From Pseudonocardia asaccharolytica DSM 44247 = NBRC 16224 (GTDB taxonomy: Bacteria > Actinomycetota > Actinomycetes > Mycobacteriales > Pseudonocardiaceae): a stretch of 64,000 nucleotides of DNA. The stretch covers positions 62,001 to 126,000 of the forward strand of contig NZ_AUII01000007.1 in the NCBI RefSeq assembly GCF_000423625.1, given 5' to 3'. Within the stretch, counting starts at the first letter, position 1. Each line of letters begins with the position of its first letter. Made by a program: the position numbers and the translations under genes. Below, piece after piece: positions 5,336 to 26,908 of this stretch. The notes beneath the pieces are model-generated. The model was not told the origin of the DNA, did not search any database, and saw only the letters and a program-made list of their open reading frames with translations.

Positions 5336-5439
5336 GGGCTTCGACCTGCTGCAGGAAATCCGGTATCTACTGCGGCAGCAGCCGAGCCGCGGCCACACTG
5401 ACCTCGCGGCCGCCGGTGCGCGGCCGTGGTCGAGGTGTA

Positions 5440-5693
5440 CGCATTTACTGCGGCAAGGCGGATCGGCGTTGGCCACGGTGCAGCTACGAGTCGTGCGCCA
5501 GAGCAGAGGAGATCCTCACCCTCGACATCGAAGACCTCGCCCCGGCCGACAAGCGCGCCCGCGTCATCGCCAAAGGCGGCGCGACCGAATGGATCCGCTG
5601 GCAGTCCGGCACCGCCCAGCTGCTGCCGTGCCTGCTCGGCGGGCGGATCCGCGGGCCGGTGCTCCTCACCCAGCCCCGGGGATCAGCAGGCGG
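5440..5693 (+). pseudogene. Internal fragment of a tyrosine recombinase
   Basis: The frame reads CARAEEILTLDIEDL, then KRARVIAKGGATEWIRWQSG, then TAQLLP. This is the arm around the first catalytic Arg and the catalytic Lys (KGG) of phage-type integrases common in actinobacteria. The N-terminal DNA-binding part and the C-terminal HxxR and Tyr motifs are absent. It merges without a gap into a Tn3-type transposase scrap. The tail of a related recombinase occurs at 18865-19113 inside another Tn3-family element. Confidence 0.65.
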
Positions 5694-5925
5694 CGGCGTA
5701 CGGACGGTTCGTTGAGGAGCCGGCGCGGCCGGAGCTGGAGCGGTTCTTCCTCCTGGACGACATGGACCGGGACCTGATCGTGCTGCGTCGGACGACGGCC
5801 CACCATCTGGGGTTCGCGGTGCAGATGTGCACCGTCCGCAACGCTTCCGCGCCTCCACCCCGGCTGGCGGCGGCCTGTGGCCCCTGCGCGACCCGACCAC
5901 CGCCGACGTCGACGAGGAGGGATGA
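5678..5925 (+). pseudogene. Tn3-family transposase (tnpA) reduced to its two ends
   Basis: The first about 54 codons match the start of actinobacterial Tn3 transposases: YGRFVEEPARPELERFF, then LDDMDRDLIVLRR, then HHLGFAVQMCTVR. After a frame change the sequence reads GGGLWPLRDPTTADVDEEG and stops at 5925, resembling the usual C-terminal tail of these enzymes (LRPLRDP). If so, about 900 residues have been lost by an internal deletion joining the two ends. It is inactive. It precedes the rifampin monooxygenase gene by about 390 bases. Confidence 0.65.
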
Positions 5926-6022
5926 GCCCCAGGTGTGTTCATCTGGCGGCGGCACCGCCGTACGCGGCGCGTCACCGCTTCGGGAGGAGCTTGTCCGTCC
6001 ACAGCGGATGGCGTAGGGCAAA

Positions 6023-15578: not shown

Positions 15579-18094
15579 CCAGGCGCGGTGAGCTGCGGAT
15601 CTACCTCGGCGCAGCGCCCGGGGTGGGCAAGACCTACGCCATGCTCGGCGAGGCCCACCGCCGAGCGGGGCGGGGCACCGACGTGGTCGTCGGGGTGGTC
15701 GAGACCCACGGCCGCGCCAAGGTCGCAGCGCAGCTCGAAGGCCTGGAGGTCCTGCCCCGCCGCCCGGTCTCCTACCGCGGAGTCGCGCTCGCCGAGCTGG
15801 ACGTGGCGGCGGTGCTGGCGCGGGCGCCGCAGGTGGTGCTGGTCGACGAGCTGGCCCACACCAACGCCCCCGGGTCGCCCAACCCGAAGCGCTGGCAGGA
15901 CGTCGAGCAGATCCTCGAGGCCGGGATCACCGTGCTGAGCACGCTCAACATCCAGCACCTGGAATCCCTGGGCGACGTCATCGAGCGGATCACCGGGGTG
16001 CGCCAGCAGGAGACCGTCCCCGACGAGATGGTGCGCCGCGCCCAGCAGGTCGAGCTCATCGACATCACGCCCGAGGCGCTGCGCAGGCGAATGGCCCACG
16101 GCAACATCTATGCCCCGGAGAAGGTCGACGCCGCCCTGGCCAACTACTTCCAGCCGCGCAACCTCACCGCGCTGCGCGAGATGGCGCTGCTGTGGGTGGC
16201 CGACCAGGTCGATGTCGCCCTGCAGCGCTACCGCACCGAACAGCGGACCACCGACGTGTGGGAGACCCGGGAACGCGTGGTCGTGGCGGTGACCGGTGGC
16301 CCGGAGAGCGAAACGGTGCTGCGCCGCGCGGCACGGATCGCCGAACGCTCCGGCTCGGCCGAGCTGCTCGCCGTACACGTGCTGCGCGGCGACGGCCTCG
16401 CCGGTGCCACCGCCGGGGCGCTGGCCGGGCTGCGCCGGCTCGCCGACGACCTGGGCGCCTCGTTCCACACCGTGCTCGGCGACGACGTGCCGGCCGCGCT
16501 GCTCGACTTCGCGCGCGGGGTCAACGCCACCCAGCTGGTGCTGGGGACCTCGCGCCGCTCCCGGCCCGCCCGCGCCCTCGTCGAGAGCATCGGCGCGCGG
16601 GTCGCGCAGGACTCCGGGCCCATCGACGTGCACATGGTCACCCACCCGGAGGCGGGCCGCGGGCTGCGGCTGCCGCGCCGGTTCAGCGCGGTCCCAGCCC
16701 GGCGGCGGGCCGCGGGCTGGGCGCTCGGCCTGGCCCTGCCGGTGACCGCGACCGGGCTGGGCGTGCTCGGCACCGGTGTGTACGGCCTGTCCACCGACGT
16801 CGTGCTGTTCTTCCTGGCCACGGTGGTCGTGGCGCTGGTCGGCGGGCTCGGGCCGGCGCTGCTCGCCGCGCTGGCCGGTGGCCTGCTGCTCAACTTCTTC
16901 CTCACCCCGCCGCTGCACACGCTCACCATCGCCGAACGCGAGAACGTGATCACGCTGGTGGCGATGGTGCTGGTGGCGATCCTGGTCGCCCTGGTGGTCG
17001 ACCGGGCCGCGCGCCGGGCACAGCAGGCCGCGGCCGCCCGCGCCGAGGCGGCGCTGCTCGCCTCGTTCTCCCGCACCGTGCTCACCCGCCCCGACCCGCT
17101 GCCGCGGCTGCTGGAGAAGGTGCGCGAGGCCTTCGGGCTGACCACCGTCGCCGTGCTGCAACGCCACGACGGGCGGTGGGCCGCCTCCGCCTGCGCCGGC
17201 CCGCCGGACTGCCAGCGTCCCGAGCAGGCCGACGTCGACGTCGCGGTCGACCCGGACATCCACCTGGTCGGACGGGGTCGGTCGCTGCCCGCCGCGGACC
17301 GCCGGCTGCTCGAGGCGGTGGCCGGGCAGGCGCTGCTGGCGCTGCGTCACCAGCAGGTCGCCGCCGAGGCCACCGAGGCCCGGCACCGCGCCGAGGCCAC
17401 CGAGCTGCGCAGCGCGCTGCTCGCCGCGGTCGGGCACGACCTGCGCACCCCGCTCACCTCGATCAAGGCCGCGGCCGGCAGCCTCCGCGACCCGAAGCTG
17501 CGGCTCTCCGAACACGACCGCGCCGAGCTCGCCGCCACCGTCGAGGAGTCCGCCGACCGGCTCACCCGGCTCGTCGCCAACCTCCTCGACTCCTCCCGCC
17601 TGGCCACCGGGGCCGTCGTCCCCGACCTGCGACCCGTGGGTTACGACGAGATCGCCGCCCAGGCGCTCGCCGGTGTGGAGGACGCGCGCCGCGTCAGCGT
17701 GGACATCGACGAACGCCTGCCCGAGGTCCTCGCCGACCCCGGACTGTTGGAACGGGTCGTCGCCAGCGTCGTGGACAACGCGATCCGCCACGGCGCGGGC
17801 GCGCCGGTCGCGCTGCGGGCCAGCGCCCTGGCCGACCGGGTCGAGCTCCGCGTGGTCGACTCCGGTCCGGGAATCCCCGCGGGCGACGCCGACCAGCTCT
17901 TCGCCCCCTTCCAACGCCTCGGCGACCGCGACCGCGGCGGACTCGGTCTCGGCCTCAGCGTGGCGCGCGGGTTCACCGAGGCCATGGCCGGAACCCTCAC
18001 CGCCGAAGACACCCCCGGCGGCGGGCTCACGATCGTGATCAGCCTGCCCGCGACCGTCCCTGCCACGCTGCTCGACCCGGCGAGCGCGCCGTGA
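15575..18094 (+). CDS. kdpD: Sensor histidine kinase KdpD
   Basis: An 839-residue membrane kinase. Residues 1-210 are the KdpD N-terminal domain with Walker A GAAPGVGKTY. A universal-stress-like domain lies at about 235-360, four membrane helices (DUF4118) at 380-480, and a GAF-like region at 500-600. The dimerisation/phosphoacceptor helix with GHDLRTPLTS carries His621, and the ATP-binding domain includes DSGPGIP and GLGLGLSVARGF. It senses potassium limitation or turgor and phosphorylates KdpE. Its end overlaps kdpE by four bases (GTGA). Confidence 0.97.
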   Translation: MTRRGELRIYLGAAPGVGKTYAMLGEAHRRAGRGTDVVVGVVETHGRAKVAAQLEGLEVLPRRPVSYRGVALAELDVAAVLARAPQVVLVDELAHTNAPGSPNPKRWQDVEQILEAGITVLSTLNIQHLESLGDVIERITGVRQQETVPDEMVRRAQQVELIDITPEALRRRMAHGNIYAPEKVDAALANYFQPRNLTALREMALLWVADQVDVALQRYRTEQRTTDVWETRERVVVAVTGGPESETVLRRAARIAERSGSAELLAVHVLRGDGLAGATAGALAGLRRLADDLGASFHTVLGDDVPAALLDFARGVNATQLVLGTSRRSRPARALVESIGARVAQDSGPIDVHMVTHPEAGRGLRLPRRFSAVPARRRAAGWALGLALPVTATGLGVLGTGVYGLSTDVVLFFLATVVVALVGGLGPALLAALAGGLLLNFFLTPPLHTLTIAERENVITLVAMVLVAILVALVVDRAARRAQQAAAARAEAALLASFSRTVLTRPDPLPRLLEKVREAFGLTTVAVLQRHDGRWAASACAGPPDCQRPEQADVDVAVDPDIHLVGRGRSLPAADRRLLEAVAGQALLALRHQQVAAEATEARHRAEATELRSALLAAVGHDLRTPLTSIKAAAGSLRDPKLRLSEHDRAELAATVEESADRLTRLVANLLDSSRLATGAVVPDLRPVGYDEIAAQALAGVEDARRVSVDIDERLPEVLADPGLLERVVASVVDNAIRHGAGAPVALRASALADRVELRVVDSGPGIPAGDADQLFAPFQRLGDRDRGGLGLGLSVARGFTEAMAGTLTAEDTPGGGLTIVISLPATVPATLLDPASAP

Positions 18095-18786
18095 CCGCGG
18101 CGGCAGCGCCGGTCACGGTGCTCGTCGTCGACGACGACGTCCAGATCCTGCGGGCGCTGCGGATCAACCTCACCGCGCGCGGCTACCGTGTGTTCACGGC
18201 CGTCGGCGGCGCCACCGCGCTGCGCGCCGCCGCCGACGTACACCCCGACGTCGTCGTGCTCGACCTAGGCCTGCCCGACATCGACGGCACCCAGGTCATC
18301 GCCGGGCTACGCGGCTGGACCACCGTGCCGATCATCGTGCTCTCCGCGCGCACCGACTCCAACGACAAGGTCCACGCGCTCGATCAGGGCGCCGACGACT
18401 ACGTCACCAAGCCCTTCGGCGTGGACGAGCTGCTCGCTCGGCTCCGCGCCTCGGTCCGCCGCGCCACCACCATCGGTGGCACCGAACCGCGCGTCGAGGC
18501 CGGCGAACTCACCATCGACCTCGGCGCACGGATCGTCGAACGCGCCGGGGTCGAGGTCCACCTCACGCCCACCGAGTGGAACATTCTCGAACTCCTCGTC
18601 CGCCACCGCGGCCGGTTGGTCACTCGCCGACGGCTCCTCGAGACGGTGTGGGGACCCGGCGACCGCAAGGAAACCAGCTACCTGCGCGTCTACCTCGGGC
18701 AGCTCCGCCGCAAGCTCGAACCCGATCCCGCCCAGCCCCGACACCTGATCACCGAAGCCGGCATGGGTTACCGGTTCCGCACCTGA
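18091..18786 (+). CDS. kdpE: Response regulator KdpE
   Basis: A 231-residue OmpR/PhoB-class regulator. The receiver domain has the acidic pair in LVVDDD, the phosphoacceptor Asp58 in VLDLGLPD, a conserved Ser in VLSAR and Lys in VTKPF. The winged HTH occupies about 135-228 with LTPTEWNILELLV and the GMGYRF end. Phosphorylated by KdpD, it should activate the kdp promoter, probably at the tandem repeat at 10883-10904. The GTG start is fixed by overlap with kdpD. A Tn3-family element is inserted only 30 bases after its stop. Confidence 0.97.
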   Translation: MTAAAAPVTVLVVDDDVQILRALRINLTARGYRVFTAVGGATALRAAADVHPDVVVLDLGLPDIDGTQVIAGLRGWTTVPIIVLSARTDSNDKVHALDQGADDYVTKPFGVDELLARLRASVRRATTIGGTEPRVEAGELTIDLGARIVERAGVEVHLTPTEWNILELLVRHRGRLVTRRRLLETVWGPGDRKETSYLRVYLGQLRRKLEPDPAQPRHLITEAGMGYRFRT

Positions 18787-18816
18787 CTATCCGGGCCCCC
18801 GCGGTTCCGACCTTCT

Positions 18817-18871
18817 GGGGTCGCCGTAGTACTCGGGAAAATTCGGGCGGATATGGCCGAGTAGGCTTCTG
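18817..18871 (+). repeat. Left terminal inverted repeat of the Tn3-family element
   Basis: Starts GGGGTCGCC and includes the core CTCGGGAAAATTC followed by GGGCGGATATGG. Aligned with the complement of 25226-25172 it matches at about 46-48 of the first 55 positions, including an unbroken stretch of 26 bases. Tn3 ends normally begin with GGGG and are about 38 bp, so similarity extends past the usual limit. Confidence 0.85.
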
Positions 18872-19113
18872 AGCTGGGGAAACCTGACACCGCCGGCACG
18901 AACCTGATCCGCAACAGTGAGGACATCGTCACCGTCGCCGAGATCCTCGGACACTCCATCGAGACCGCCCAGCGCTACAGCCTGCCCCCTGACGCCGACG
19001 CTGATAACCAGGCCGCGATCGAACGCCTCGCCGTGGACCAGTGGGCCCAGACATGGAGCCAGCGGCCGGCTGATCATCCGGCCGTCGCCCGGCGGCAGCC
19101 GGACCCCCGATGA
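18865..19113 (+). pseudogene. C-terminal fragment of a tyrosine recombinase
   Basis: The frame opens inside the inverted repeat and reads GTNLIRNSEDIVTVAEILGH, then SIETAQRYSLP. This is the last part of an integrase with the catalytic His (LGH) and the nucleophile Tyr (RYS). The Arg-Lys half is missing and no start is visible. The final 25 residues diverge and end at 19113, overlapping the next ATG by four bases. It could be the remains of a TnpI-like recombinase belonging to the transposon. Confidence 0.7.
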
Positions 19114-19856
19114 TCGGCCGGCGGCTTGTGCCGGACACCATCGAGCACGTGGCGAGTTCCGCTGATCCCTACGTCATTGCTGGTATTGACCTGCGCGTCT
19201 TCGTCGCGGGCTGGTTGTCCTGCCTCCAGGCCGGCGACGGCGAGGCGGTGGGCCTGCTGGAGCACGCCCGGTCCGATCCGGAGGCCGGGGAGCGGTATGA
19301 GTATGGCGCGCTCTACATGTCTGCCAACATCGCTCCGCGAGCGACCGAACCCACGGCAAGTCCCGAAGAACTGCTGCTGTTCGCGGTCATGGCCCTCTAC
19401 CAGGACGCTGGGTTCCCCGGTGCTGACCCGACCGTGTGGGATGGCGAGGAGGCACACGCGCGCCGCGCCTTCGGCTTCTTCCACGAGCTGGGCGAACAGG
19501 AAGCCGCACGACGGCTCCGGGCCGAGGTCTATCGACGCAGCGCGCGCGAGCGGCCACCGGGCTACGAAGCAACGCTGCAGCGGTCGCTGGGCAACGACCC
19601 TGCTCGGATGGCCGTGCACGACCAGCGGATGGCGTCGATCCATGACCGCAGCTTCCGCGCAGCTCACCTGCTCAACCCCGGCGGAACTGCCCGCCGAGGC
19701 AGCCGCTCCGCTCCCCGATCCGCGTTCACACCGAGGCGGTCTGGTCGATCCCGGTATCGCCTCGCGAGTTATAAGCCCGGTCGCCGATGTCGGCGCCGGG
19801 CTTTTCAGCCGAGGTGTCGTGGCAACGCGGTGTGCCTCAGCCGTGGAAGGCGATGA
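19110..19856 (+). CDS. Hypothetical protein, C-terminal reading uncertain
   Basis: The first about 190 residues look coding: an acidic, helical sequence with DLRVFVAGWLSCLQAGDGEA and AHARRAFGFFHELGEQEAARR. I recognise no family. The last about 55 residues are Arg-rich and run through a terminator-like hairpin at 19773-19805, so the true end is probably earlier, either in another frame after a frameshift near 19660-19690 or by damage. The ATG overlaps the stop of the recombinase scrap (ATGA). It lies inside the Tn3-family element. Confidence 0.45.
   Translation: MIGRRLVPDTIEHVASSADPYVIAGIDLRVFVAGWLSCLQAGDGEAVGLLEHARSDPEAGERYEYGALYMSANIAPRATEPTASPEELLLFAVMALYQDAGFPGADPTVWDGEEAHARRAFGFFHELGEQEAARRLRAEVYRRSARERPPGYEATLQRSLGNDPARMAVHDQRMASIHDRSFRAAHLLNPGGTARRGSRSAPRSAFTPRRSGRSRYRLASYKPGRRCRRRAFQPRCRGNAVCLSRGRR
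19773..19805 (+). terminator. Rho-independent terminator-like hairpin
   Basis: AAGCCCGG and CGCCGA pair with TCGGCG and CCGGGCTT, followed by TTT on the + strand. The stem is strong, with a two- or three-base loop and one bulge. It lies between the + strand hypothetical gene and the 3' end of the VOC gene on the - strand, so it may serve both convergent units. Confidence 0.7.
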
Positions 19857-20292
19857 ACTCAAGCTGCACGCCGTCTGGGTCGCAGAACGTCACCAGCGAG
19901 AGCGGGAAGCCCGGCATGGGGTACACGCCGGAGTTTGGTACGCCCTGGCTCTCCAGGTGCGTCACCCAAGCGTGCAGTGCGTCGACCGACTCGACCTGGA
20001 AGGACAGGTGGTCCAGGCCGGTCCGCGTCGGGTCGAAGCCGTCCCCCGTGTTCGCCGGGTGGTGATCGATTCCCAGGCTGAACGACCCGTCGGGCGGACC
20101 GAGCACGATCGTGTAACCGTTCGCCTCGCTGCGGTAGTGGCGTACCTGAAAGAGGCGGCCGAGCCCGAGCACCCGCTCGTACCAGGCAGCGCTCGCCTCG
20201 ACGTCGGTGACCGTGATGCCGATGTGATGGATCCCGGTGAGCGTCGGACGCACCGTGGCCTTGGCGGCCGGCGCCGTTTCGGTGGGGGTCAT
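19837..20292 (-). CDS. VOC-family (glyoxalase-like) protein
   Basis: A 151-residue single-chain vicinal-oxygen-chelate protein with two beta-alpha-beta-beta-beta units. GIHHIGITVTDVEASAAWY begins the first, GLDHLSFQVESVDALHAWV begins the second, and QLEFIAF ends it. The His of each unit's start and the Glu of QLEF fit the usual metal ligands. Substrate unknown. GAGGAGG lies 7-13 bases before the ATG. It follows the MBL-fold gene by 20 bases on the same strand, forming a likely operon with it and the LuxR-type regulator inside the transposon. Confidence 0.85.
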   Translation of the reverse strand: MTPTETAPAAKATVRPTLTGIHHIGITVTDVEASAAWYERVLGLGRLFQVRHYRSEANGYTIVLGPPDGSFSLGIDHHPANTGDGFDPTRTGLDHLSFQVESVDALHAWVTHLESQGVPNSGVYPMPGFPLSLVTFCDPDGVQLEFIAFHG

Positions 20293-20312
20293 GTCGTCCT
20301 CCTCACGGTCGA

Positions 20313-21125
20313 TCAGGCGGGTGGAGTTGGGGCAGCTGCACCGAGCGCGGCGAAGATCGACGCGAAGGCAGCGTGGTCCGGCGGGACGAACGGTGGGCGG
20401 GCGGGAACGGACGCGATGACCTCGACGAACTGCCTGGCCATACGGCCGGACGCGCTGGGCAGGTGGGAACTGAAGATGGTCGTAGGTTGCAGCCGTGCGA
20501 CCTCATTGGCCGCCGCCCGGAAGCGGTCGTGGTCGACGAGCTGCGTCCACGGGGAGTCGAACGCCGCCCAGCCGGCGATTCCGTCGACGAGGTCCGCTTC
20601 GGAAACGTCGTCGCAGCTCTCCGGGACGCTCGGCAGGATCGCACCGAACGTGTCGACCGTGTACATCGCGCCGGTCCGCTCGTCGAGCAGGCCGGTCGTC
20701 ATCGGATTGTCGAACAGCGGTGGCCGCACACCGCGGAGGTAGCGGTCCCCCACGTCGAGCCGGCCCCCGGGCTGCAGAGCGCTCACCCGATCGAGGGGAA
20801 CGGGCCACCAGGTGGACATGCGCAACGCGCCGAGGCCATGCGTCAGCAGGCGGGCCGCCGGAGCCAGCGACATGACCCGCTCGAGGTTGCCGGTGTGGTC
20901 TGCGTCGTCATGGGTCAGCCAGATCCAGCGGATGTCTGCCGGGTCCACGATCGAGCGCAGCGCGTGCTCGAACTCCTCGCCGTCCATGGCGAGCCCTGTG
21001 TCCACCAGGACCGGCTCCCTGGCCAGAATGACGTACGCGTTCACGACCAATGTGCCGATGCCCGGAATGGGCAAGCTGCTAGGCAGGACGTGGACATCGT
21101 TGCCGACGCGGTAGATGGGGTCCAT
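20313..21125 (-). CDS. MBL-fold metallo-hydrolase
   Basis: A 270-residue metallo-beta-lactamase-fold protein. The metal motif reads THDDADHTGNL (about residues 75-85), so the second His of the classical HxHxDH motif is Asp, as in HxExDH or HDDxDH subgroups that may bind iron. Further expected positions are DTGLAM near 43 and SSHLPSASG near 220. No signal peptide. The reaction is unknown. It lies between the LuxR-type regulator and the VOC gene; the gap of 126 bases to the regulator may hold a promoter. Confidence 0.8.
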   Translation of the reverse strand: MDPIYRVGNDVHVLPSSLPIPGIGTLVVNAYVILAREPVLVDTGLAMDGEEFEHALRSIVDPADIRWIWLTHDDADHTGNLERVMSLAPAARLLTHGLGALRMSTWWPVPLDRVSALQPGGRLDVGDRYLRGVRPPLFDNPMTTGLLDERTGAMYTVDTFGAILPSVPESCDDVSEADLVDGIAGWAAFDSPWTQLVDHDRFRAAANEVARLQPTTIFSSHLPSASGRMARQFVEVIASVPARPPFVPPDHAAFASIFAALGAAAPTPPA

Positions 21126-21251
21126 TCCCCTTCGCCTTCTTTCGTGCGCGTCAATGACCTACCGAGAGATGAGGTGCTCCCTTGTCGACGGGATGCATAC
21201 ATGATCGAGACGGCGGTGCCCTCGGGCATCAGGCCGACCCCCATCTTTAGG

Positions 21252-24149
21252 TCATCTCACCCCTAGAAGATGGCGTGCGGCGAGGGAAACGAGCTCCGAC
21301 CGGCTTTCGACGCCCAGCTTGGTGGCCAGGTTGGCGATGTGACGCTCCACGGTCTTGGGAGACAGGTACAGGCGGGCAGCGATGTCCCTGGTGGAGAGTC
21401 CTTCGGCCAGCAATGTCAACACTTCGGCCTCCCTGGGGGTCACCCCGGCGGCGGCCAAGGCGTCGGGCAGGTCTGGTGCCGGCCGGCGACGGCGGGGCAC
21501 CGGGGCGCCGGCCTGCCGGAGAAGGGAGCGGCAGGCGGAGGCCACCGCGGGCGGCCCGGTCGCATCGAAGAAGGCGAGCGCTTCGGCCAACCAACGCTTC
21601 GGGTTTCCCCACCGGTCGCGTATCGCCGCCTCAGCCACCAACCGGCGGGCGTGGTGGCGATACCAGTCACAGGGGGCCAGGTCGGCGTCGGCTCTGGCGA
21701 AGACCTCCTCCGCCTCTGCAATGTGGCCCCGTCGGCCCAGCTCGACCGCGCGTGCGTGGCCCACCCATCCCCGGATCAGCCAGTACACGATCAGGCCCGA
21801 GGCCTCCACCTCGGCCACCGCGTCTGCCCCATCGTCGCGGTCGAGGGTATGCAGGAGCGCCCACAGACCCCGGTTGGGTGTCGTGACCGGCGTGTCTCGC
21901 AACAGCTCCATACCCGCGTCGAGCTCGGCCAGTGCCCGCCGACGGTCCTCCCGGACCAGCCACAGCAGCGCCCGGGCCATGAGGGCGGCGTCCCCACGGA
22001 CCTCGCGATGGCCGCCGGAGACGGTGACGGCCTTATCGATGGCCGCTTCCATCTCCGCGCGCTGATCCAAAAGAGCGTGACCGACCGCTTGCAGGACGTA
22101 CCCCACCCCGGCGACGAGAGGAAGCCGCAGCCGGCCCGCCTCGGTGGCGCACGAACGAGCCGCTTTGATCACGCCCTCGGGTTCGGCATGGTTGGTGGAC
22201 CAGGCGGCCATCTGCAGGCTGACGGTGGCGGCGGTCGCCAACGCGCCGGCATCTAGCGCGGCTTGGCGGGCCTGGGCGAGCCGGTCGAGCGGACCGCCGC
22301 CGATGAGATCGATCGTGCCCAGCTCGTGGAGGGCCCGGATGCGCCACAGGGGAAGACCGTGCTGGTCGGCCAGAACCAGAGCGGCGCTGAAGGCATCTTC
22401 GGCGGCGGCGAGGTCGTGCTGGCGTTCGCGTTGCCCGAGTACCTCCAGTGCCTCACAGGCCAGCTCGTAACGTCCGTCCGTCTGTGCGGTGGCCAGTGCC
22501 GTGCGGGCCAGCGTGGCGGCGTCGTCAAGCTGGCCTTCCCCGAGGGCCACCCGGGCGGCCAGCACCTCGGAAACGCCGGCAACGCCACCAGATTCGGACA
22601 GCTCCTCGGCGAGGTGGAGCTGGTCGCGGGCCCGAGGCCAATCGGCCGAGACGATCGCGGCCCGAGCCAGCAGCAGATGCGCCCGCGCCCGGCGTGCCGG
22701 TGGCGCGGCCACGGCACCGAGACTGGACAGCAACCGCTGGCCCACCTCGCTCACCCGTTGCGCGCTACCGGTCGCGACGAATACCTCGCACAGCACCTCA
22801 TCGATCTCGGCGGCACGTTGAGCATCGTCACCGACCAGGCCTCTGGCCCGCTCGAGCGTGGCCTCGGCGCTGGCCAGAGCGCCCCGAGCGAAAGCGCGTC
22901 GTGCCGACTCGAGGTGTAGTTCGGCTGCCCGGGCCGGCTGGTCCGCCGCTTCGGCGAGCTCGGCGGCCAGCTCACACCACCCCCCGGGCAACCCAGGATG
23001 TGCCTGCTCGACAGCGCGCAGACCGCTCGAAGCGAGGATGACCTGCTCCGGCGGGAAGAGTTCGGCCAAAATCGCCTCGCGGGTCAGGGCATGCCGGAAA
23101 CGGAAGCGGGGACCTGTACCAGTGGCTTCGACGGACAGCAGCTGGACGTCGGCAGCCCAGCGAAGGTGCTTAGCCACGCTCGCTTCGTCCTGGCCTTTGA
23201 TCATGTCGGGCAGCAGGCGCCAGTCGAAACTCCGGCCGAGCAGCGCCGCCGCCCCCAAAAGTTCCCGCGTCCCCGGTGTCGCCTCGAGGCGTCGGCGAAC
23301 GGTCTCGGCGAACGTGACGGGAATGGCAGCACCACGGAAACGATCCAGTATCCAGCCCTCGGCCGTCTGTCGCAGCTCGCCAGCCTGGACCATCGCCGCG
23401 ATCAGCTCCTCGACCAGAAACGGCAGACCATCAGCCCTGATCGCCAGCACCTCGGCCAGCGCGGCGGGAACGGCCACGCTTCGCAGACATCCCGCGGCGA
23501 CCGCGGTGACCTCCTCGGCGGTCAGCCTTTGAAGCCGCAGAACGGAAGCCGAGCGCCGAGCTGCCAAGCTGTGGACACGTGACAAGGCGAGACTGGGTTC
23601 CTCGTCGCGAAGCGAGATCAGGCACAGGATTGGCTGGTCGGCTACGTTGTCGGCCAGATACTCCATGACCTCGAGCGTTTCGGTGTCCGCCCAGTGCAGA
23701 TCTTCCAGCACGAGCACACTGCCAGCGCTTTCGGTTACCGCGGCGAGCACCCTGAGCACGGCCTCGCCCAACACCACAAGCGATGCCTCCCCGGGCGGCT
23801 CACCGGCAAGGCGCCACTCCGGAATCAGTCGACCCAGGATCGGGCGAAACGGGGCCAACTCGGGGACCTGCGGCGGTCCCGACCGACGGAGGTGGGAGAA
23901 CAGCGCCTCCGCAAGAGGTCGAAAAGCACGCGGGTTGTCGCGCTCAACGGCCCGACCGGTGAGCACCGATACTCGCCGGCTGACGGCATCGGCGGCAGCC
24001 TCCCGAACCAGGCGTGACTTGCCGACGCCGGCCTCGCCAACGATCACCAGCGTCGCGCCGTGACCTCTGGCCACGCGATCGAGCGCGGATCGCAGCTCTC
24101 CCAACTCCCGGTCGCGACCCACTAGCACCGGGCACAACAGCTCCGGCAT
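21252..24149 (-). CDS. LAL-type (large ATP-binding LuxR family) transcriptional regulator
   Basis: A 965-residue regulator. The N-terminal AAA/NACHT-like ATPase has Walker A VGEAGVGKSRL near residues 38-47 and Walker B SVLVLEDLHWAD near 150. A long helical TPR-like middle follows (about 350-870). The C-terminal LuxR HTH reads LTLLAEGLSTRDIAARL, then LSPKTVERHIANL (about 900-960). Such MalT-like proteins activate transcription on binding an inducer and ATP. The ATG at 24149 starts the MPELLCPVLVGRDREL motif usual for the family; a 160-residue longer reading is antisense-like and rejected. It overlaps the end of the truncated tnpA by 28 bases. Probable regulator of the MBL/VOC genes. Confidence 0.88.
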   Translation of the reverse strand: MPELLCPVLVGRDRELGELRSALDRVARGHGATLVIVGEAGVGKSRLVREAAADAVSRRVSVLTGRAVERDNPRAFRPLAEALFSHLRRSGPPQVPELAPFRPILGRLIPEWRLAGEPPGEASLVVLGEAVLRVLAAVTESAGSVLVLEDLHWADTETLEVMEYLADNVADQPILCLISLRDEEPSLALSRVHSLAARRSASVLRLQRLTAEEVTAVAAGCLRSVAVPAALAEVLAIRADGLPFLVEELIAAMVQAGELRQTAEGWILDRFRGAAIPVTFAETVRRRLEATPGTRELLGAAALLGRSFDWRLLPDMIKGQDEASVAKHLRWAADVQLLSVEATGTGPRFRFRHALTREAILAELFPPEQVILASSGLRAVEQAHPGLPGGWCELAAELAEAADQPARAAELHLESARRAFARGALASAEATLERARGLVGDDAQRAAEIDEVLCEVFVATGSAQRVSEVGQRLLSSLGAVAAPPARRARAHLLLARAAIVSADWPRARDQLHLAEELSESGGVAGVSEVLAARVALGEGQLDDAATLARTALATAQTDGRYELACEALEVLGQRERQHDLAAAEDAFSAALVLADQHGLPLWRIRALHELGTIDLIGGGPLDRLAQARQAALDAGALATAATVSLQMAAWSTNHAEPEGVIKAARSCATEAGRLRLPLVAGVGYVLQAVGHALLDQRAEMEAAIDKAVTVSGGHREVRGDAALMARALLWLVREDRRRALAELDAGMELLRDTPVTTPNRGLWALLHTLDRDDGADAVAEVEASGLIVYWLIRGWVGHARAVELGRRGHIAEAEEVFARADADLAPCDWYRHHARRLVAEAAIRDRWGNPKRWLAEALAFFDATGPPAVASACRSLLRQAGAPVPRRRRPAPDLPDALAAAGVTPREAEVLTLLAEGLSTRDIAARLYLSPKTVERHIANLATKLGVESRSELVSLAARHLLGVR

Positions 24150-25171
24150 GCCATTGAGCGTGCCACCAGCGCAGCCGACCGGTCGAGAACTACGGTGCAC
24201 CCGGAAGAACAGGCCGCCCCGGCGACCTGCTCGCCCGCTCCTCGGACGATGGCCAGGATCGCGTCCAGCAACGCCTGGCGGTCTTCCCCGGACTTGGCGC
24301 GCTCGGCCAGGTAGTCGCGCATCTTGTACGCGGCCTTGCTCTCCCGCGCGGACACGGCCTGGTCGAACAGCCCCACGACCTCGTCCAGCACCTCGGTCGC
24401 CGACTGCGCCAGCAGGGTCAGCAGGATCGGGTACCGGCGTTGCGGCTCCCGCCGCTGTAGTGCCTGCGCCGTCAGGCGGTGGCCGACTGTGGCCAGGAAC
24501 CGGCGCCGCTCCGCCGGCAGCACCGACAGGTCCAGGGTGTGCGCGTCCATCCCGCGCAGGAACTCCAGCTTCGCGATCTCGGCCTTCACCGCCGCGGGCG
24601 AGGCTTCCACCGGCCCCTTGCCCAGCCACCGCAGCCGGGTCATCCCGATCCCGGCGTCCACCACCAGCAGGCCGTCCAGGGCGGCGCGGCGCTCGTCGGT
24701 GAACTCGTGCGCCAACCGGTCAAACGTCTCCTGCCGCGCCACCTCGCAGGCATGGGCGACCCGCTTGACCACCGTCACCGGGCCCGGCCGAATCACCCGT
24801 GCCGAGATCAGGTACTCACACGCCAGCCGGAACAGCAGCGTCGGTGAGTCGTGCTCCATCGCCCGCGCGAGCAGGAACTCGTCGAGCTCCTTCAACTCCA
24901 GCGGCGTCGCGGCCCGCCACCCCAGATACTGCGCCGCCAGCCGAAGATGCTCGGTGCGGGTCTTCGCCCGCCGCCCGTAGGAGCGAAGCGCATCCGGGTC
25001 GACCTGGAGGCGCTCGGCCAGCCGCACCACCGCCGCGCGCGGCGCCGACGCCACGTCGTCGGGCACGAACCCCAACCACGGCAACGTGCAGAGGGCTACG
25101 GCGAGCCCCAACCGGTCTGCCGGCCCCCGACCCCGGCCGGGGTCAACGAACGCAACGTCCGCCGGGGTCAA
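24122..25171 (-). pseudogene. tnpA: Truncated Tn3-family transposase (tnpA)
   Basis: About 310 residues match the N-terminal part of an actinobacterial Tn3 transposase: LAVALCTLPWLGFVPDDV, then FLLARAMEHDSPTLLF, then GMTRLRWLGKGPVEASPAAV, and RRYPILLTLLAQSATEVLDE. A full enzyme has about 1,000 residues including the DDE core. Here the frame runs into 35 unrelated residues and stops where the LAL regulator gene starts, so the catalytic part is lost. The frame starts with TTG at 25171, immediately inside the right inverted repeat, and lacks the usual first about 50 residues. No strong ribosome site. Confidence 0.85.
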
Positions 25172-25226
25172 CAGGAGCCTACCCAGCCATATCCGCCCGA
25201 ATTTTCCCGAGCACTAGGGGGACCCT
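25172..25226 (-). repeat. Right terminal inverted repeat of the Tn3-family element
   Basis: Read on the - strand from 25226 it starts AGGGTCCCCC and continues with the same CTCGGGAAAATTC plus GGGCGGATATGG core as the left end. Bases 25227-25231 (CTTCT) repeat the five bases in front of the left end. Confidence 0.85.
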
Positions 25227-25308
25227 CTTCTGGTCGAGGCGGTTGATGGCGGTTGTGGCGTGTGGATTGGGTGTCTCACCGGCTGAGGTTGATCGTTTTT
25301 AGTTGTTA

Positions 25309-25333
25309 CGTCAATGAATGAACGACGTTGAAG
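25309..25333 (+). repeat. 25-base direct repeat, copy 1
   Basis: CGTCAATGAATG followed by AACGACGTTGAAG. Copy 2, at 25561-25585, differs at three positions. The copies are 252 bases apart, and the 227 bases between them show no convincing gene. They could be attachment-site halves, regulator sites of the following recombinase gene, or members of a dispersed repeat. Confidence 0.6.
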
Positions 25334-25560
25334 CTGCCCGGATCCCGGCGGCCGCGCAGGACCATGACCATGCACGTGCTGATCGCCACCCCCTGGACGT
25401 GGCGACGTCCGGATCGTGAGGGCCCGATGGTCTTCGTCAAGGCGGAGCCGGCTGCAGCCAGCGATGCCGGCCGAGGCGTTGCCAGGATGACGGCGCCTCG
25501 GCGGGTGCTCCCCTGACCTGAGGTTCGACGGCCCAGCCACATTCTCAAGATCCACCGGTG

Positions 25561-25585
25561 CGTCAATGAATGGATGACATTGAAG
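25561..25585 (+). repeat. 25-base direct repeat, copy 2
   Basis: CGTCAATGAATG followed by GATGACATTGAAG, matching copy 1 at 22 of 25 positions. It lies about 125 bases upstream of the recombinase start. The interval 25227-25708 as a whole contains only this repeat pair and the palindromes at 25629-25688. Confidence 0.6.
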
Positions 25586-25628
25586 AGCGAGGCGACCGTG
25601 CCATCCCCGAGCGGCACCACCGCCACCG

Positions 25629-25688
25629 CGTTGTGGAGCCATGACGTCGTGGGCGGATGGTCGCCACGCGCGTTGTGGAGCCATAACG
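25629..25688. repeat. Pair of 18-bp palindromes, spaced 42 bp
   Basis: Copies CGTTGTGGAGCCATGACG (25629-25646) and CGTTGTGGAGCCATAACG (25671-25688) belong to the family whose perfect form is CGTTATGG-AG-CCATAACG. Related groups lie at 43433-43504 and 51925-52036. The second copy ends 20 bases before the recombinase start. Confidence 0.75.
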
Positions 25689-25708
25689 CGACAGAGGAAG
25701 ATCGAGCC

Positions 25709-26908
25709 GTGAGCGCAGACGCCCTGGTGCTGCTGGAAGCCGTCCGCGAGGACACCGTCGGGAAGCCCGTGCTGCCCGAGGCGGGCTGGCCCGGGGTCAC
25801 CGACCCCGACACGTTGCGTGCGCAGCTGCTCGACTGGCTCAGCCAGTACGACAACGCCGGCACCCGGCGGACCTACGCCTACGCCCTGGGCCTGCCCATC
25901 GCCTGGGTGGACGCCATCGGCGGCACCCCCGCGGCCCCGCCGCAGGCCGGTTCGACGCGCTGCCCTCCCCCGGCACCGCCCGGGCCGCTGCACCAGCTGG
26001 CCTGGTTCCGCTGGTGCGCCCGGCAGTCGCTGGACCCGCGGGCGGCGACGTCGGCCCAGGTCAAGGCGTGGCTGCACGCGCTGTCGTCCGCCGGGGCGCA
26101 GCGGCGGACCCGCCAGCGGATGCTCTCGACCCTCTCGGCGCTCTACGGCCATCTCGCCGAAACCGGCGTCGTCCCGGCCAACCCGGCCGCGCTGAACCGT
26201 TCGCGGCTCGGGCTGGCGAGCAGCGCGCGCGAGCCCTCACCGACCGTCCGGCTCACCGCCGCCCAGCTGCGCGCCCTGCTCACCGGTGCGGCGACGTTGC
26301 ACTACACCGCCGATCCCCGGCTGCGGCGGCTGTATCCGCTGCGCGGCGTCGCCGTGGTGGCGCTGCTGACCCTGGGCCTGCGGATCTCCGAACTCACCGG
26401 GCTCGACCGCGGCGACATCTACCGCACCGGCGGCGAGGAGGTGGTGCGGGTGCTGGGCAAGGGCGGGCTGCGCCGCGAGGTGTACCTGACCGACCTGGTG
26501 CGCACCGCGCTCGACGCCTATCTCGCCGAGCGCGACCGGCTCTCCGGCGGCGCGGTGCCCGCCCGGCGGGGCCGCACCGCCGCGGGCGGCTCACCGCTCA
26601 TCGCCACCCGCGACGGCGGTCGCTGCTCCCGGGTGGATCTCTACCGGCTGCTGCGCCGGATCGCGGCGGGCGCGGGTCCGGAGCTGGCCGACGTGGCCGA
26701 CCGGGTGCACCCGCACGCCCTGCGGCACGCCTATGTGACGATCGCGCTGGAGCGGGACGCGCCGATCCAGCACGTCCAGGCCGACGTCGGGCACGCGACG
26801 ATCGCGACTACGCAGCACTACGATCGCGGCCGCCGCACCCGCGACACCACCGCCGCCGACCTGGTCGCCGCGGCGATCGCCGCCGTCGGGTCGTCCGGCC
26901 CGAGCTGA
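25709..26908 (+). CDS. Tyrosine recombinase/integrase (XerC/XerD-like)
   Basis: A 399-residue recombinase. The N-terminal SAM-like core-binding domain spans about residues 30-190. The catalytic domain shows Arg in LGLRISELTGLDRGD, Lys in VLGKGGLRREVYL, HPHALRHAYVTI with His-x-x-Arg, His in DVGHATIATTQHY and the final Tyr. All five key residues appear present. It acts in cytoplasmic DNA integration or excision. The GTG at 25709 is chosen for AGAGGAAG at -18 to -11; a longer reading would translate the palindromic repeats. It lies beside the Tn3-family element but outside its ends, near the right border of the island. Confidence 0.88.
   Translation: MSADALVLLEAVREDTVGKPVLPEAGWPGVTDPDTLRAQLLDWLSQYDNAGTRRTYAYALGLPIAWVDAIGGTPAAPPQAGSTRCPPPAPPGPLHQLAWFRWCARQSLDPRAATSAQVKAWLHALSSAGAQRRTRQRMLSTLSALYGHLAETGVVPANPAALNRSRLGLASSAREPSPTVRLTAAQLRALLTGAATLHYTADPRLRRLYPLRGVAVVALLTLGLRISELTGLDRGDIYRTGGEEVVRVLGKGGLRREVYLTDLVRTALDAYLAERDRLSGGAVPARRGRTAAGGSPLIATRDGGRCSRVDLYRLLRRIAAGAGPELADVADRVHPHALRHAYVTIALERDAPIQHVQADVGHATIATTQHYDRGRRTRDTTAADLVAAAIAAVGSSGPS

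Follow-up and report, generated by a model that had tools for sequence, protein, structure and literature searches.

A likely non-autonomous Tn3-family transposon with two tnpA-type ends and an intact regulator-plus-enzymes cassette in Pseudonocardia asaccharolytica

The DNA analysed here (the window) is a stretch of 64,000 nucleotides from Pseudonocardia asaccharolytica DSM 44247, lying on contig C7 of a genome of 5.05 Mb in 71 contigs. Between kdpE and a XerC-like gene, the window contains a unit of 6,410 bp (18817-25226) bounded by inverted repeats (IRs), and the features of this unit and its immediate borders are as follows.

18812..18816, no strand: left copy of the target-site duplication CTTCT, an exact match to the right copy
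18817..18880, plus strand: left end, a 54-bp IR with an inner extension of the tnpA-proximal type (IR; inner 25 nt; similarity to locus L047)
18881..19109, plus strand: probable C-terminal remnant of a tyrosine recombinase (reading frame; weak matches only)
19110..19856, plus strand: ORF of 248 aa overlapping the 3' end of the VOC gene (no Pfam, NCBIfam or PHROG match)
19837..20292, minus strand: VOC-fold protein of the glyoxalase/dioxygenase superfamily (PF00903, E 1.5e-15)
20313..21125, minus strand: MBL-fold protein with an HxDxDH motif (PF00753, E 7.7e-11; PF19583 (ODP), E 5e-8)
21252..24149, minus strand: LAL regulator of 965 aa, with AAA ATPase and LuxR HTH (PF13191, E 9.5e-26; PF00196, E 1.1e-17)
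24150..24245, minus strand: junction between the LAL 5' region and the tnpA relic (homology to relatives)
24246..25171, minus strand: tnpA relic, residues 31-339 of about 1004, without start and without DDE domain (Pfam, NCBIfam, PDB, relatives)
25172..25226, minus strand: right end, a 54-bp IR with a tnpA-proximal extension (IR; inner extension; relatives)
25227..25231, no strand: right copy of the target-site duplication CTTCT, an exact match to the left copy

The two IR arms (18818-18871 and 25172-25225) are 89% complementary across 54 nt, contain an identical 26-nt core and form the top inverted pair within 18000-26500 (8.5 kb), where the runner-up spans 31 nt at 71%. Aligned with the right end, the left 55-mer agrees at 48 of 55 positions; no other site on either strand of the window exceeds 29 of 55. 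Directly outside the two ends, the CTTCT copies abut their outer edges. Long terminal IRs of at least 38 bp, here common to elements with Tn3 transposases, and a target duplication of 5 bp are both features of the Tn3 family. The outermost base of the ends differs, as the left end starts with GGGG and the right end with AGGG, and this one mismatch is a point against transposition as a unit.

Adjacent to the right end lies what is left of a Tn3 transposase gene. The relic matches PF13700 (E 1.7e-35) and NF033527 (E 9e-51; 173 bits, under the cut-off of 500, as expected of a fragment), aligns in a PDB search to residues 47-313 of the Tn4430 transposase (7qd4), and is 89% identical over 309 residues to residues 31-339 of the 1004-residue transposase of Pseudonocardia sp. 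ICBG1293 (G043). It is truncated at both ends. Compared with intact relatives, ~130 bp including the start codon are missing between the right IR and codon 31, and the tnpA homology starts exactly at the inner edge of the IR (25170-25172 in loci L023 and L113). On the other side, homology ends at 24246-24252 in the closest relatives and at 24232 in L047 of Speluncibacter jeojiensis, and the DDE domain (596-983 in L047) is missing. Lacking a Tn3-type DDE transposase, the unit is classed as a non-autonomous Tn3-family derivative rather than an autonomous element. The initial annotation had described a Tn3-family element with IRs of about 55 bp, a 26-base identical core and an exact CTTCT duplication on both sides, and this description is borne out by the IRs, the duplication and the PF13700, NF033527 and 7qd4 matches. 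It had also placed the cut-off of tnpA near the LAL start, in agreement with the ATG at 24149, while the tnpA start that it had read at the right end is absent.

The Tn3 family model gave three matches in the assembly, none over the cut-off and none a full-length transposase: the relic itself, a stretch of 139 profile positions with one stop on contig C5, and 42 positions at 5732-5857 of the window. With tnpA truncated and only fragments elsewhere in the assembly, the unit is unable to transpose on its own, and no helper for it is apparent there; the unit is probably stranded, and probably a dead end in this genome. The relic has no internal stop and is still an open frame, with a dN/dS of 0.15 against the G043 gene, suggesting that tnpA was lost recently. 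No serine resolvase was found by Pfam among the six proteins scanned, and the frame at 18881-19109 gave two weak matches, PF00589 (E 0.007, under its cut-off) and the phrog_1 integrase (E 0.0075). Elsewhere in the window, 5426-6016 holds the N-terminal relic of another Tn3 transposase (PF13700, E 8e-12), which the Tn3 family model also matched, preceded by a tyrosine-recombinase fragment recognised by eye, a place where Pfam found none.

The cargo consists of the LAL, MBL-fold and VOC-fold genes, all of which are intact, with dN/dS values of 0.21, 0.28 and 0.29, respectively, against their orthologues in the congener G011. LAL proteins activate catabolic and antibiotic genes as ATP-dependent regulators of the LuxR type. 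The window protein, whose start codon (ATG 24149) was chosen from relatives, has the N-terminal AAA ATPase and C-terminal LuxR-type HTH of this family, with PF13191 and PF00196 both over their cut-offs, and is 74-75% identical to the proteins of three congeners. The nearest PDB matches of the MBL-fold protein are flavodiiron nitric oxide and oxygen reductases, and no flavodoxin domain was found in the 270-aa window protein. Its motif reads HxDxDH rather than HxHxDH, with Asp opposite a His of the aligned flavodiiron protein. All 26 members examined (the window and L117-L142) have this motif and, within P-x-x-D-x-P, another Asp; these positions are metal ligands in flavodiiron proteins. Both cargo enzymes are probably metal-dependent and may act in a catabolic or detoxification step, with LAL as their predicted ATP-dependent activator of the LuxR type. 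A role as resistance cassette was rejected, in line with the initial annotation, as none of the families listed reaches its cut-off; the best bla model scores 23.8 bits for the MBL-fold protein against a cut-off of 500, and this score and the HxDxDH motif in place of HxHxDH set the protein apart from resistance metallo-beta-lactamases. Homologues of the 248-aa ORF were found in four plasmid records, and a partial one in one of 61 other genomes of the genus.

The LAL-MBL-VOC block (window 19838-24169) is also found in three of the 61 other genus genomes (G011, G016 and G042) at 75-76% DNA identity, the four best candidates per genome being scored, and the 5' part of LAL occurs at a contig end in G053 at 85%. 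A search with the MBL protein recovered the same three genomes at 74% and one further genus genome at 43%. In the wider family, 26 of 390 genomes, including the present one, encode an MBL relative at E <= 1e-50, and LAL adjoins MBL in six of these 26 (the present genome, G011, G016, G042, G034 and G086; 1.5-kb flanks). In the three congeners two ORFs, of 773 and 255 aa, border the block; in one of the loci (L035) Pfam identifies them as a CoA-transferase III and an enoyl-CoA hydratase. Next to LAL in L037 lies a pyridine-nucleotide-disulphide oxidoreductase, with an ORF of matching sequence in L036. No such IR is present in the 17-18 kb fetched around these three blocks. A block without IRs in relatives had been named beforehand as an argument against the element. 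Such blocks do exist, and to the letter this point stands; yet they show the normal setting of the cassette and do not refute transposition here. When 17 kb of the G011 region was compared with the P. asaccharolytica genome, the block gave one strong match and the 27 others were scattered, the longest being 877 bp at 67%; the cassette is therefore present here without its usual neighbours. That the block lacks IRs in the catabolic neighbourhood of congeners, and that this neighbourhood is missing here, makes it most likely that the transposon brought the cassette in. A second copy of the cargo between such ends was not found in the loci scanned, which counts against movement as a unit.

The same ends recur in Tn3-family transposons of Pseudonocardia and other actinobacteria, several with intact transposases. 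These include Pseudonocardia sp. ICBG1293, S. jeojiensis (L047), and Rhodococcus, Nocardia, Embleya and Arthrobacter plasmid copies, which share with the window the end sequence, the tnpA family and the 5-bp flank duplication. Pseudonocardia sp. ICBG1293 holds copies of 3,389 and 4,372 bp, with a tnpA ORF of 1004 aa in those whose ORFs were listed (L023, L025). In loci matching all 309 residues or nearly so, the transposases are 79-89% identical to the window relic, more distant exceptions being L033 (78%) and L034 (63%). A degenerate end pattern, searched in one genome per species across 84,980 species, returned 52 stretches, 51 of them actinobacterial by record title and the remaining one from a metagenome bin labelled Deltaproteobacteria, and the tnpA relic and IR match 55 plasmid records, 30 of which are Rhodococcus.

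To compare flanks, end pairs were defined as facing neighbours 0.5-15 kb apart, each matching the window's left end at 26 or more of 39 positions, and were taken from loci L023-L114 and the window, with pairs of identical flanks and length counted once; one G043 element contributes several of the resulting 23 pairs, as copies at different sites. Identical 5-bp flanks are seen in 8 of the 23 (7 of 22 without the window), compared with 0 of 506 mismatched controls. In addition to CTTCT in the window, the matching flanks are TGGTT, TGCTC, GTTCT, ATTTC, ATGAG, GGGAT and AGGTT. They occur in intact relatives with a 1004-aa tnpA (L025, L049), and in internally deleted ones (L072, L091 and L052, the last with no tnpA match at all), so non-autonomous derivatives of this family do move. 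The remaining 15 pairs have no matching flanks; a duplication is hence not the rule in this end family, which weighs against the movement of the window unit as a whole.

Intact members have one tnpA-side end, one other end and a full tnpA, whereas the window unit has residues 31-339 only and a pair of tnpA-type ends, its main unusual trait. In intact relatives, the tnpA-proximal end usually extends inward as TGGGTAGGCTYCTGACC or similar, and the opposite end does not. The left end of the window, although distant from tnpA, bears CCGAGTAGGCTTCTGAGCTGGGG. Over its inner 25 nt, this end agrees with tnpA-side ends at a mean of 17.1 of 25 positions (best 23; 20 distinct segments, one being the window's own right end), compared with 10.5 for two confirmed opposite ends and a mean of 10.7 (best 21) for 35 unclassified ends, which include tnpA-type ends whose tnpA is lost. 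Over 18813-18880, the left end is 92.6% identical to the tnpA-side end of L047. Both ends are clearly of the tnpA type in two of the 23 pairs, the window and Arthrobacter sp. Hiyo8 (motif read by eye), while a pair of Nocardia cerradoensis (L074) is ambiguous, its inner segments resembling each other with the motif absent. On plasmid pHiyo8-1 (AP014720.1, L114), two tnpA-side ends face outward in inverted orientation around other DNA, as in the window. Unlike the window unit, both Hiyo8 copies retain a long portion of tnpA (the two are 97.9% identical over 1.8 kb), and their flanks differ (TCATG/CAGGG), with no duplication and no sign of movement as a unit.

The twin ends suggest a collapsed composite, in which two inverted copies around captured genes would have shrunk to two tnpA-type ends; by analogy, the window unit could be a collapsed pair of the Hiyo8 kind that did move as a unit. 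Two points argue against this origin. The Hiyo8 pair, its structural precedent, lacks a duplication, and two full copies would once have had inner IRs, of which no further copy (at least 25 of 39 positions) is present in 18000-26500 beyond the two ends. An inversion by recombination between the two IRs was rejected as the source of the twin ends by reasoning, as it merely swaps inner sequences, and gene conversion from the present right end is disfavoured, the tnpA-type homology of the left end reaching further inward (18880) than that of the right.

The unit at 18817-25226 is likely a non-autonomous, partly decayed Tn3-family transposon that moved as one piece and carries an intact cassette. 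Mobilised in trans by a Tn3-family transposase from elsewhere, or by its own tnpA before truncation, both ends of ~54 bp would have been joined to the target, leaving the CTTCT duplication, and the whole unit would have entered between kdpE and the XerC-like gene with a LAL, MBL-fold and VOC-fold cassette that belongs to a chromosomal catabolic neighbourhood in congeners. A rather unlikely alternative is that an ordinary Tn3 transposon with its own tnpA inserted first and later received the cassette, through recombination or a further insertion that removed tnpA, so that the duplication would record the earlier insertion rather than the arrival of the cargo. The seemingly recent loss of tnpA fits this order of events, as does the meeting of the tnpA homology (24246) with the LAL upstream homology, which runs to 24188 in G053 and 24169 in G011, within ~60 bp; it leaves the tnpA-proximal type of the left end unexplained, and no second duplication or other ends are seen around the cassette. 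That two independent Tn3 remnants, a left solo end and a right truncated copy, face each other by chance around genes that were always chromosomal, with CTTCT a coincidence, is highly improbable: a solo tnpA-type end does exist elsewhere in this genome (C43, L030), the two window ends share that type and facing pairs without matching flanks are common, but an in-register 5-bp match is expected at ~1/1024 under equal base use and was absent from the mismatched controls, an AAAATT core variant common to both window ends is absent from the other ends listed (the window's own copy aside), and this genome lacks the remainder of the usual cargo neighbourhood.

If it moved as one piece, the unit represents a Tn3-family transposon with a non-resistance cassette of a regulator and enzymes, for which an immobile counterpart is found in congeners. 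The twin ends further yield a clear prediction as to the Tn3 ends that are sufficient for transposition. Tentatively, and with considerable doubt, it could be speculated that a mobile unit of this actinobacterial Tn3 lineage needs no more than single tnpA-proximal ends of ~54-64 bp, with neither a tnpA-distal partner nor complete miniature elements, and that two such half-elements may lift a regulatory cassette from a catabolic cluster and move it between genomes.

In its logic, a collapsed composite of inverted copies would be similar to TIME-COMPs. TIMEs and TIME-COMPs are described as units bounded by Tn3-family ends and devoid of a transposase, whose movement left duplications of 5 or 6 bp (PMC4133298), and TIME-COMPs with resistance genes were described in Enterobacteriaceae (PMC13367494), a report whose main text does not contain the stems Actinomyc or Actinobact. 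Going by these descriptions, the window unit shares with TIME-COMPs the lack of a working transposase gene, Tn3-type outer ends, a 5-bp duplication outside the outermost IRs and unrelated core genes (PMC4133298, PMC13367494). TIME-COMPs, which are reported to move when provided with a transposase in trans, are bounded by two complete miniature elements of ~250 bp with two IRs each, whereas the window unit has a single end per side, with only two IR copies in 18000-26500, and retains a tnpA relic. Judged by title, literature searches for Pseudonocardia with Tn3 family transposase returned none about such elements, and those for LAL-family regulators with metallo-beta-lactamase none pertinent.

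LAL genes were also observed near two other Tn3 sequences. In the P. asaccharolytica genome, a degenerate LAL gene that has lost its central part (L030, 671-1333) stops 35 bp before the solo tnpA-proximal-type end on C43. In L034 (7091-12417; contig C14 of G033), a Tn3 tnpA ORF of 838 aa, compared with 1004 aa in relatives, ends in ATGA, overlapping the ATG of a different LAL gene. As the LAL query gave 54 matches in the P. asaccharolytica genome and adjacency may arise by chance, no association of LAL genes with Tn3 elements as recurrent passengers is claimed.

An empty site, with the flanks joined at one CTTCT, was searched for in 62 genus genomes including the present one and was not found. 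Outside this genome, the right flank matched a single 48-bp piece, in G039, among the eight best candidates scored per genome, and kdpE is widespread in the genus genomes searched. The XerC-like tyrosine recombinase gene (25574-26908) is present in all 12 relative loci fetched around it, with hemH nearby in eight, and no match to kdpA, kdpB, kdpD or kdpE was found in these loci. The setting of this gene therefore looks conserved, with the kdp genes not adjoining it in relatives. Finally, a near-palindrome, GTT(A/G)TGGAGCCAT(A/G)AC, lies at 25630-25688 of the window and at many other places in the genome, 62 in all with at most one mismatch (0 for the backwards control), often as tandem copies spaced 41-42 bp apart. 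Of 62 genus genomes, 10 contain the form GTTATGGAGCCATAAC, which occurs 39 times in that of P. asaccharolytica, and the near-palindrome could represent either an operator or a repeat dispersed through the genome.
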